Of a stretch of 64,000 bases of DNA, positions 1,636 to 18,689 are shown in pieces (position 1 is the stretch's first letter; every line of letters starts with the position of its first letter). The notes under the pieces were generated by a model that saw nothing but the letters and a program-made list of their open reading frames with translations, made no database searches and had not been told where the DNA came from. Location: positions 248,001-312,000 of the forward strand of contig NZ_LUKY01000032.1 of the NCBI RefSeq assembly GCF_001881495.1. Reading direction: 5' to 3'. Position numbers and translations under genes: made by a program. The stretch comes from Candidatus Rickettsiella isopodorum (GTDB lineage: Bacteria; Pseudomonadota; Gammaproteobacteria; Diplorickettsiales; Diplorickettsiaceae).

Positions 1636-1770
1636 TATACACTCTTCGCATTTGAATTTTTGTCTGTGTTACCGTTCAACTCGCCAATCCTCATGGTGAT
1701 TGTAGACACGTCGATGGCGGCATAGTCGCGGCACTTTGCCAAAATTCCAATGACTGGGAGTCTGCGTAGT
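1636..1770 (-). repeat. Dispersed palindromic element, copy A (rnc-era junction)
   Basis: First of three related copies in this window (others at 5158-5283 and 17230-17353). Read on the minus strand it starts near ACTCCCAGTCATTGG and has TTTTGGCAAAGTGCCGC in its left arm. It ends with TTGAACGG, AACACAGACAAAAATTC and GCGAAGAGTGTATA. The left arm (TTGGCA, GCCG) can partly pair with the right arm. The middle of the element is not conserved with the other copies. It occupies almost all of the rnc-era gap: it begins about 4 nt after the rnc stop and ends 3 nt before the era start, so it is transcribed with both genes. Confidence 0.8.
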
Positions 1771-5157: not shown

Positions 5158-5283
5158 TATACTCACAGCAATTGGATTTTTGGCAAGGCGCCGAGAAAAT
5201 GAGCAACCGGAGTATATTAATAGATACATGAGGATTGCGAATTGAACGGCAACACAGTCAAAAATTCAAGTGCGAAGAGTCTA
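5158..5283 (+). repeat. Dispersed palindromic element, copy B (lepA-esterase gap)
   Basis: Second copy of the element found at 1636-1770 and 17230-17353, here in plus orientation. It begins TATACTCACAGCAATTGG, continues TTTTTGGCAAGGCGCCG, and has ATGAGGATTGCGAATTGAAC and CAACACAGTCAAAAATTC in its right half. It ends GCGAAGAGTCTA. Outer TATACTC pairs with GAGT(c)TA, and TTTTGGC pairs loosely with the right-arm GTCAAAA; the central part differs between copies. It ends 3 nt before the stop codon of the minus-strand esterase gene and lies upstream of lepA. It therefore hugs a gene end, as copy A does. Confidence 0.8.
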
Positions 5284-16363: not shown

Positions 16364-16819
16364 CTACAACGCTAAATTCTGTAACTCACCAGGTAACTCT
16401 TCCGGTTTAACGGTCTCTGAAATCCATTGAGTACGATAATCGTCCCATTCTCTAGCGCTCCACAATTCAATTTTTCTACCTTGACCTACGACCATAATTT
16501 CTTTTTCTAAATGTGCATAATTTCTTAACAGTGCTGGCAATAAAACTCGGCCATTGGTATCGACATCCAAATCAGTTGCATGACCTATCAGTAATCGTTG
16601 AATACGCCGCACAGCCGGATTAAAACTGGGTAAGGCCTGCAATTTTTCTTCGATGATTTCCCATTCCTGTAAAGGATAAAGCAATAAACAAGGAGACTCG
16701 GTATCGATAGTAAGTACTAGTTGAGGTTCTTTATCTGTAGGTAGTAACTGTCGATAGCGAACCGGTAACTTGATCCGGCCCTTCGCATCGAGCACTACCA
16801 AATTTATACCCCGAAACAT
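16364..16819 (-). CDS. mraZ: Transcriptional regulator MraZ
   Basis: MraZ is an AbrB-like DNA-binding regulator of the division and cell-wall cluster. Two SpoVT/AbrB-like repeats are visible: NLVVLDAKGRIKLPVRYR near residues 6-23 and ATDLDVDTNGRVLLPALLR near 79-97. Length of 151 residues is normal. It is the first gene of mraZ-rsmH-ftsL-ftsI. Directly upstream lie four 10-bp-spaced GTGGG-type boxes and a strong promoter, consistent with the autorepression known for this family. Confidence 0.96.
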   Translation of the reverse strand: MFRGINLVVLDAKGRIKLPVRYRQLLPTDKEPQLVLTIDTESPCLLLYPLQEWEIIEEKLQALPSFNPAVRRIQRLLIGHATDLDVDTNGRVLLPALLRNYAHLEKEIMVVGQGRKIELWSAREWDDYRTQWISETVKPEELPGELQNLAL

Positions 16820-16899: not shown

Positions 16900-17020
16900 G
16901 CATTAGCTGGGCTTAGATAAAATTGATGGGGAGTTTTGTGTTTAATAAGCACAAAATGAGCCGATACAGAAAAAAATTTAGCGAATTAATTACCTGAATG
17001 GTAATACTTTTTTAGAAAAA

Positions 17021-17490
17021 GAGAGTTAGCCGATAAGCCGGGTTCTGTCGTGGACAGTCATTCATCTAGGATATACGTCACCATACATCTCAAGCGACCT
17101 ACCCGAACCTAGCGTGGGCCACGCCTAAAAGGTTCCTATTTGGTCTTGCTCCAAGTGGGGTTTGCCCTGCCATCACTGTTACCAATGATGCGGTGCGCTT
17201 TTACCACACCTTTTCACCCTTACCCAGTCTATACTCTTCACACTTGAGTTTTTGGCTGTGTTGCCGCTCAACTCGCAATGCTCATGTATTTTGGATATAC
17301 ATGTTGACTGCACGAACGCGGCACTTGCCAAACATCCAATTGCTGTGAGTATATAATTTCACTAAGGCGGTATATTTTCTGTGGCACTTTCCGTAGGCTT
17401 ACACCTCCCAGGCATTACCTGGCACTTTGCCCGATGGAGCCCGGACTTTCCTCTGTAGAAACTACAGCGACTGTCTAGCCAACTCTACTT
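17021..17490 (-). ncRNA. rnpB: RNase P RNA (bacterial class A), enlarged by a repeat in P12
   Basis: Catalytic RNA of RNase P, which trims tRNA 5' leaders. On the minus strand the 5' part contains GAGGAAAGTCCGGGCTCC (17454-17437, conserved region I). The centre has GGTAAGGGTGAAAAGGTG and GAGCAAGACCAAATAGG, and the 3' end has ACAGAACCCGGCTTATCGG. Together these match the E. coli type throughout. The gene is about 470 nt rather than the usual 350-400. The excess is a 124-bp palindromic element (17230-17353) sitting exactly where helix P12 is in E. coli, between ACCGCC and GGTAAGGGTGAAA. All conserved catalytic regions appear intact. End points are estimated from alignment by eye. Confidence 0.95.
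17230..17353 (-). repeat. Dispersed palindromic element, copy C (inside rnpB, helix P12)
   Basis: Third copy of the family (others at 1636-1770 and 5158-5283). On the minus strand it begins TATACTCACAGCAATTGG and ends AAGTGTGAAGAGTATA, so the outer 7 bases pair exactly (TATACTC with GAGTATA). Inside, TTTGGC pairs with GCCAAA and GCCGC with GCGGC. A central ATGTAT/ATACAT hairpin caps the stem. Flanking rnpB bases TTAGT and ACTGG can also pair, so the insert reads as a long extension of P12. This copy has the best-preserved pairing of the three. Confidence 0.85.
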
Positions 17491-17570
17491 CAGCTTAGCG
17501 TACTATTTTTTCCCTATGCTTTGCAATACAATTAAAAAGTTTTATTCTCCTATTTATTAATGATGGTTTA

Positions 17571-18689
17571 ATGAAAAAATTATATATAGGTTTAATGTCA
17601 GGCACGAGTATGGATGCAGTGGATGTTGCATTAGTCGATTTTTCAAATAATCAACCCAAATTACTTGCTACCTATAAATCCCCTTTACCTCATCGGTTAC
17701 GTAAAGAACTCAATAAACTTTACTCTATAGATTCAATTAACATAGTAAAATTTGCTGAACTCGATCAAAAAATCGCATTAATTTCGGTGGAAGCCGTTAA
17801 AAAACTATTAGAAAAAAGTCAATGTTCTGCTAAAGATATTTTAGCGATAGGTAGCCACGGGCAAACTGTTTTTCATTATCCCCATCTTTCAAATTATCCA
17901 TTTACTCTTCAGATTGGCGATCCCAATATCATTGCAGAAAAAACCGGTATTACGACCATTGCGGATTTTCGTCGACGAGATATTGCCGCCGGAGGTCAAG
18001 GAGCGCCCTTAACGCCGGCTTTTCACAACACGATTTTACGCAATAAAAAAGAAGAGACTATCGTATTAAATCTCGGTGGAATTGCCAATATCACTTATTT
18101 ACCTGCTGATCTAAAAGCGACAGTTTTAGGCTTTGATACGGGTCCTGCGAATTGCCTACTCGATCAATGGATACAATATCATTGTAAACGCTGGTTTGAT
18201 GACGAGGGTGCTTGGGCAGCAAGTGCCTCTTTTGACCAAGCCTTATTAAACCAATTTTTATCTGATCCTTATTTTCAACTAAAACCTCCAAAAAGTACTG
18301 GGCCCGAATATTTCAATTTCAAATGGATACAGACACAACTTGCTTTGCTAAATCAACCGCCCGCACCTGCTATAGTGCAAGCAACTCTTTGCGAACTGAT
18401 TGCTGTCAGTATTTCAAAAGCTATATTAAGCTTTAAAAGTACGCATGGCGTGATTTTACTCTGTGGGGGAGGAAGTAAAAATACTTATTTAAGAAAACGC
18501 ATCCAACAACATTGCCGCCACCATCCTATCTTATTAACCGATGATCGAGGAGTACCCAGTGATTGGTTAGAAGCAATGGCATTCGCATGGCTTGCAAAAC
18601 AAACTTTAGAAGGCAAATCCAGTAACCTCCCCGAAGTAACCGGCGCTAAAAACGCAACCATACTCGGTGGAATTTACTTAAAAACTTAA
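17571..18689 (+). CDS. anmK: Anhydro-N-acetylmuramic acid kinase
   Basis: Kinase that opens and phosphorylates 1,6-anhydro-MurNAc for peptidoglycan recycling. The N-terminal ATP-binding signature [16 protein letters not shown] (near residues 7-22) is diagnostic. Others are [32 protein letters not shown] (near 131) and [13 protein letters not shown]. Length of 372 residues is typical. It is transcribed divergently from rnpB, and its end overlaps the converging erpA gene by 4 bases. Confidence 0.96.

Follow-up and report, generated by a model that had tools for sequence, protein, structure and literature searches.

How does the RNA of RNase P, an essential catalytic RNA encoded here by a single gene, come to carry a palindromic repeat within one of its helices in Candidatus Rickettsiella isopodorum, and what becomes of the RNA that contains it? 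The earlier note, made from the letters of a 64,000-nucleotide stretch of this genome (the window), had proposed that a 124-bp dispersed element sits in helix P12 of an otherwise conserved rnpB. Searches of the source genome (G000), covering the 33 contigs of an assembly stated to be 100% complete, recover the gene as a full-length match to the RF00010 covariance model (cmscan; 323.3 bits against a gathering score of 100), which places it in class A. The match extends over model positions 1-367 and leaves the ribozyme intact apart from P12, consistent with the proposed conservation. It is the sole RF00010 match in the 33 contigs, and no second, uninterrupted rnpB is present among them. The gene is flanked by what we take, from their sequences, to be anmK (17571-18689, plus strand) and mraZ (16364-16819, minus strand), in an order also found in relatives.

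The covariance-model alignment places about 124 extra bases between ACCGCC and GGTAAGGGTGAAA, the position of P12, exactly where they had been assigned (Table 1). The insert is bounded by exact 7-bp outer arms (TATACTC/GAGTATA), as described; the nested internal arms that had also been reported do form a hairpin, but an imperfect one, interrupted by internal loops and with a longest unbroken helix of 7 bp. Folding of the P12 region with its insert (17219-17373, minus strand) yields a hairpin of -47.8 kcal/mol (z -3.18; none of 200 shuffled sequences folds as low), the base of which is closed by the flanks, in agreement with the suggestion of a long P12 extension with paired flanks. The opposite strand reaches -39.8 kcal/mol (z -1.98).

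Table 1. Coordinates of rnpB, its insert and related repeats (positions in the window unless a locus is named).
Feature	Position	Strand	Remarks
rnpB, class A RNase P RNA	17018..17486	-	469 nt including the insert
3′ side of P12 base	17219..17229	-	Base-paired with the 5′ side (minus-strand fold over 17219-17373; Rfam alignment)
TA at one insert end, probable copy of the duplicated target	17230..17231
Palindromic repeat, family 1, subtype B, in P12	17230..17353	-	RNA strand is the better-folding strand
TA at the other insert end, probable second target copy	17352..17353
5′ side of P12 base and remnant of the old P12 hairpin (GTGAAATTA)	17354..17369	-
Dispersed copy, family 1	5158..5283	+ (strand reading like rnpB RNA)	80% identity, E 9e-24
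Dispersed copy, family 1	1638..1761	- (strand reading like rnpB RNA)	75% identity, E 4e-19; profile match 94 bits
Extra insert in G015 rnpB, P3	L076, about 374-520
Extra insert in G015 rnpB, between P16 and P17	L076, about 805-934
Family-2 copies	L247 1964-2073, 2769-2885; L248 1795-1893, 1948-2052; L250 823-933

The insert belongs to a dispersed family of repeats (family 1), of which the window contains the two further copies that the earlier note had pointed out. All 124 of its bases align to many other copies, and the best match outside rnpB (C33:280877-281002, 87% identity, blast E 8e-36) rules out chance similarity. At least 43 blast matches were obtained in the source genome, at least 42 of them at E ≤ 1.6e-7 and the rnpB copy included, a count in which some matches are pieces of one copy and which, with 40 of 68 candidates scored, is a lower bound. 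Among 29 genomes searched, family-1 matches are present in 12 of the 16 that belong to the bacterial family (Rickettsiella and its kin) and in none of the 13 outside it. The ends TATACTC/GAGTATA and a conserved body are common to 46 aligned copies (alignment A2, obtained from A1 by omitting L026, L028 and L030 and turning round L090 and L091), in which two subtypes, A and B, diverge in the segment after the left arm. Of 30 loci in the source genome, rnpB included, 25 are free of overlap with open reading frame calls of at least 80 aa and five overlap one; L024 is the only one where such a call reads through the repeat copy. One copy in G005 (L081, G005:C1:1163643-1163766) comes close to a perfect palindrome (-80.6 kcal/mol), other copies being imperfect, and perhaps reflects conversion of one arm by the other. 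A tandem-repeat origin was rejected, no tandem repeat being detected in 17000-17500 at a score of 30, and the only match of the repeat to a known RNA family is a meaningless one to a miRNA (E 2.1).

Comparison of repeat sites between genomes suggests that the repeat moves or has moved. Twelve joined flank pairs from the source genome were searched in seven relatives, and at many of the sites one relative has the element where another lacks it. In 19 pairs compared, a single TA at the empty site corresponds to TA...TA at the filled one in the clean cases (L018 compared with G003, L017 with G005, L013 with G005 and G004), most of the others being too drifted to read. At rnpB, P12 reads GAAATTATAGTTAGG in G005 and GAAATTA-[TATACTC...GAGTATA]-GACTGGG in G000 at the place of the insert, which appears to fit the same rule of TA duplication. 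Short, non-coding, dispersed, ending in terminal inverted repeats and associated with a TA target duplication in the clean pairs (L018, L017, L013), the repeat has the features of a MITE. Among transposases, the IS630 type (PF13358) was the one family sought: its genes occur in 7 of the 16 family genomes, and a parent transposon of this type within the source genome was rejected, no PF13358 gene being found there. Among six IS630-type loci scanned with plain motifs, L240 alone has end-like motifs flanking the gene, at a spacing of 2.3 kb, which makes it a candidate at most; no PF13358 transposase with ends matching the repeat was identified.

The distribution of the insert among relatives bears on how often P12 has been entered. 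Each of the 16 family genomes has one rnpB match, and the synteny anmK-rnpB-mraZ is maintained in 15 of them, no flanking gene having been found for G013 on its contig. P12 contains the repeat in five (G000, G006, G008, G012 and G015) and lacks it in 11, so that the insert, as had been claimed, matches a dispersed repeat and is no common property of the relatives. In a species tree built from five neighbouring proteins of 15 genomes (G013 was dropped for want of flanking genes), G006, which has the insert, groups with G003 and G007, which do not (bootstrap 97), and G015, which has it, is sister to G011, which does not (bootstrap 100). The insert is of subtype B in G000 and G015 and of subtype A in G006, G008 and G012. 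This scattered presence on the species tree, together with the two subtypes, suggests that the P12 copies arose by repeated insertion. Five hits in rnpB compare with about 0.3-1.6 expected over 12 genomes if there are 290-718 copies and 10-20% of the sequence is non-coding. With copy totals that give rough limits and percentages that are assumptions, enrichment of rnpB as a target is suggestive at best.

All five P12 regions with the insert close at the base and extend into a long arm (z -1.9 to -3.9), and in the predicted folds of G006 and G008 this arm stands beside the old P12 hairpin. The same strand of the repeat is found in the RNA in all five rnpB copies and in a helix of 23S rRNA of two genomes (see below), an agreement of 7/7 with a two-sided probability of 0.016 that is valid if the copies are independent; shared ancestry of the rnpB copies could be another source of it. 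Of the 46 copies, 42 have the better fold on the RNA-like strand and not on its complement (consensus -46.1 versus -34.7 kcal/mol), but this advantage is inherited from the consensus and thus does not constitute independent evidence for each copy. Covariation lends the repeat hairpin almost no support, RNAalifold giving -2.6 kcal/mol and 10 pairs over the 46 copies.

The repeat also enters other stable RNAs. The 23S rRNA gene of the source genome, on contig C20, which breaks off inside the gene, has an intervening sequence at what we take to be helix 25, and this sequence contains a family-1 repeat in sense direction (L247 3533-3654). G007 has the repeat in the corresponding intervening sequence of both of its 23S genes (L260, L269), and its sister G003 has an intervening sequence without it. 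Over 12 copies of helix 25 from eight genomes (L270 was dropped, its anchors not being found), the repeat is present in three copies from two genomes and absent in nine; G003, G001, G004 and G005 are among the genomes that lack it at this spot. The intervening sequence of G015 (L261, reverse strand) encloses a reading frame with a GIY-YIG domain (PF01541, E 1.1e-10), perhaps a relic of homing-endonuclease type. Copies of a second dispersed family (family 2) are located in 16S-23S spacers and in the gaps of a tRNA gene cluster, one of them being antisense and the majority sense. No insert was seen in tmRNA, whose matches span 404-411 nt in 10 genomes of the genus, and 20 further family-1 copies of the source genome overlap no RNA gene and have tRNAs only as neighbours.

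The rnpB of G015 is the most heavily extended. Aligned with that of G011, to which its pieces are 91-98% identical, it has an insert of about 145 nt in P3, another of 92 nt in P12 and a third of 130 nt in P16/17. The P3 insert belongs to family 2, the second dispersed family, with copies of 94% and 89% identity in G011, 88% in G015, 91% in G000 and 86% in G005; the P16/17 insert folds as a long hairpin, and no other copy of it was found in the seven genomes searched. The Rfam match to this gene starts inside the P3 insert, the true 5′ end being upstream, a warning that gene prediction may truncate RNAs of this kind. Four other long rnpB helices were tested for repeats: P12 of G050 and G079, from other families of bacteria, P3 of G014, from the same family, and P3 of G051, from another. 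The first three have no other copy in their own genomes. P3 of G051 (L284) contains a REP-like palindrome of about 40 nt, unrelated to family 1, with 42 further matches in its genome. One more copy of this palindrome lies just outside rnpB. Long rnpB helices are therefore not repeats by rule, yet repeat insertion recurs, with an unrelated repeat, in G051.

Taken together, these observations make it probable that a MITE-like element has inserted into the sole rnpB of this genome and is tolerated as an extension of a dispensable helix. According to the passages on P12 in PMC2858038, the helix has no universally conserved nucleotide and is missing in Mycoplasma fermentans, and it is dispensable in cyanobacteria, for which that paper cites Vioque 1997, a work on short tandem repeats within rnpB. 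A non-autonomous palindrome of about 122 bp, accompanied by a TA duplication, would have entered a TATA on the 3′ strand of P12 and, in the orientation found, would fold back as a long arm on that helix. Tolerance would follow from the peripheral position of P12 and its lack of conserved sequence, and the ribozyme core would remain undisturbed because the palindrome folds upon itself; judging from the predicted structure, the RNA most likely keeps the arm, and the retention in the mature ribozyme that the earlier note had proposed is plausible. Landing places of this kind in the family would comprise P12, P3 and P16/17 of rnpB, the helix-25 spacer of 23S rRNA, and the rRNA and tRNA spacers. 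Peripheral helices and spacers of stable RNAs could serve in this way because they lie in transcribed, non-coding sequence and their structure can accommodate additions; an insert in the opposite orientation, or at another point of the gene, would presumably be purged. The earlier note is borne out on the sequence and for the most part in its interpretation. Its term domesticated is too strong: tolerance is indicated, and a benefit is unsupported.

Other accounts of the long P12 fare less well. Non-repeat long helices such as those of G050, G014 and G079 give some grounds for regarding it as ordinary length variation of RNase P RNA that resembles the repeat by chance, but with every base of the insert aligned to many copies this account is refuted and retains virtually no probability. 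A rather unlikely alternative to repeated insertion is that one ancient insertion in a common ancestor was followed by precise losses in several lineages. This would explain why all five P12 copies have the same orientation and why those of G000, G006 and G008 lie at about one place, on the 3′ side of the old P12 hairpin. The tree of element copies, in which the rnpB copies are scattered, failed as proof of independent insertions, since a single origin was not rejected by AU tests for all five copies (p=0.09), for G000, G006 and G008 (p=0.23) or for G006 and G008 (p=0.51). However, several precise excisions would be needed to leave G006 and G015 with the insert beside sisters that lack it, the two subtypes divide the five copies, P12 of G005, which has no insert, pairs well, and in G012 and G015 the insert fills the end of a short P12, a place different from that in Rickettsiella.

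A further alternative concerns the fate of the RNA: RNase III or another nuclease might cleave the hairpin after transcription, excising or cutting the insert and leaving a two-piece RNase P RNA held together by its fold and its protein. The internal loops and the short unbroken helix of the palindrome speak against this, making it presumably a poor RNase III substrate by the rules usually given. On the other hand, the same repeat in the same orientation occurs in the helix-25 intervening sequences of G000 and G007, and helix-25 spacers of 23S rRNA are cut out in other bacteria, classically in gammaproteobacteria. Transcripts of the Correia element, a MITE of Neisseria, are moreover cut by RNase III, as described in part of PMC10969869. 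Weighing these points, we consider cleavage unlikely and prefer the tolerated, uncut arm. A broader proposal is possible but doubtful. Peripheral rnpB helices in Rickettsiella and its kin may be recurrent, strand-selective landing sites for several palindrome families, and in some species the RNA (in G015, with three inserts, about 690 nt) may work either as a greatly enlarged ribozyme or as a naturally split one cut at the palindromes, which would parallel the fragmentation of 23S rRNA within those cells.

Few cases are documented in bacteria of a mobile repeat lodged in a catalytic RNA that is both essential and encoded by a single gene. Here, species that carry the insert can be set beside sister species that do not, as natural before/after pairs for asking whether RNase P merely copes with a hairpin insert, makes use of it or removes it, and whether such tolerance also explains the repeats in rRNA spacers.

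Several known systems share parts of this arrangement. The rnpB genes of heterocyst-forming cyanobacteria reportedly contain short tandemly repeated repetitive (STRR) sequences, likewise repetitive DNA within an RNase P RNA gene. Unlike those short tandem repeats, the insert described here contains no tandem units: it is a 124-bp palindrome with a TA duplication, scattered among sister species. It also resembles the intervening sequences of 23S helix 25, in being a hairpin insert in a peripheral helix of a stable RNA, and a family-1 repeat lies inside one of these; whereas those spacers are excised, the rnpB insert is the repeat itself and not a separate spacer, and fragmentation of rnpB RNA is not known here.

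Also close in kind are the TA-ended MITEs, namely Correia elements, ERIC and the QMITEs of Coxiella burnetii, which, in the accounts given in parts of PMC10969869 and PMC5896051, are short, have TA terminal inverted repeats, encode no protein, are mostly intergenic and give stem-loop transcripts; the likeness is one of these described features. RNase P receives no mention in the text of either paper. Rickettsia palindromic elements, to which the earlier note had compared the insert, are similar in spirit, since they too are palindromic repeats (100-150 bp) found within genes of intracellular bacteria, but they differ in lying in-frame within protein genes and encoding peptides (PMC10969869). 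Family-1 copies, in contrast, are mostly intergenic or in RNA genes, and a single locus of the 30 in the source genome is read through. A search of the open-licence literature found no earlier report of this arrangement. MITE-like palindromes and repeats in cyanobacterial rnpB are already known, and what is new is their combination: an essential ribozyme interrupted by a mobile palindrome, with up to three helices affected, a presence that varies between sister species of one family, and occurrence of the same repeat in 23S rRNA.
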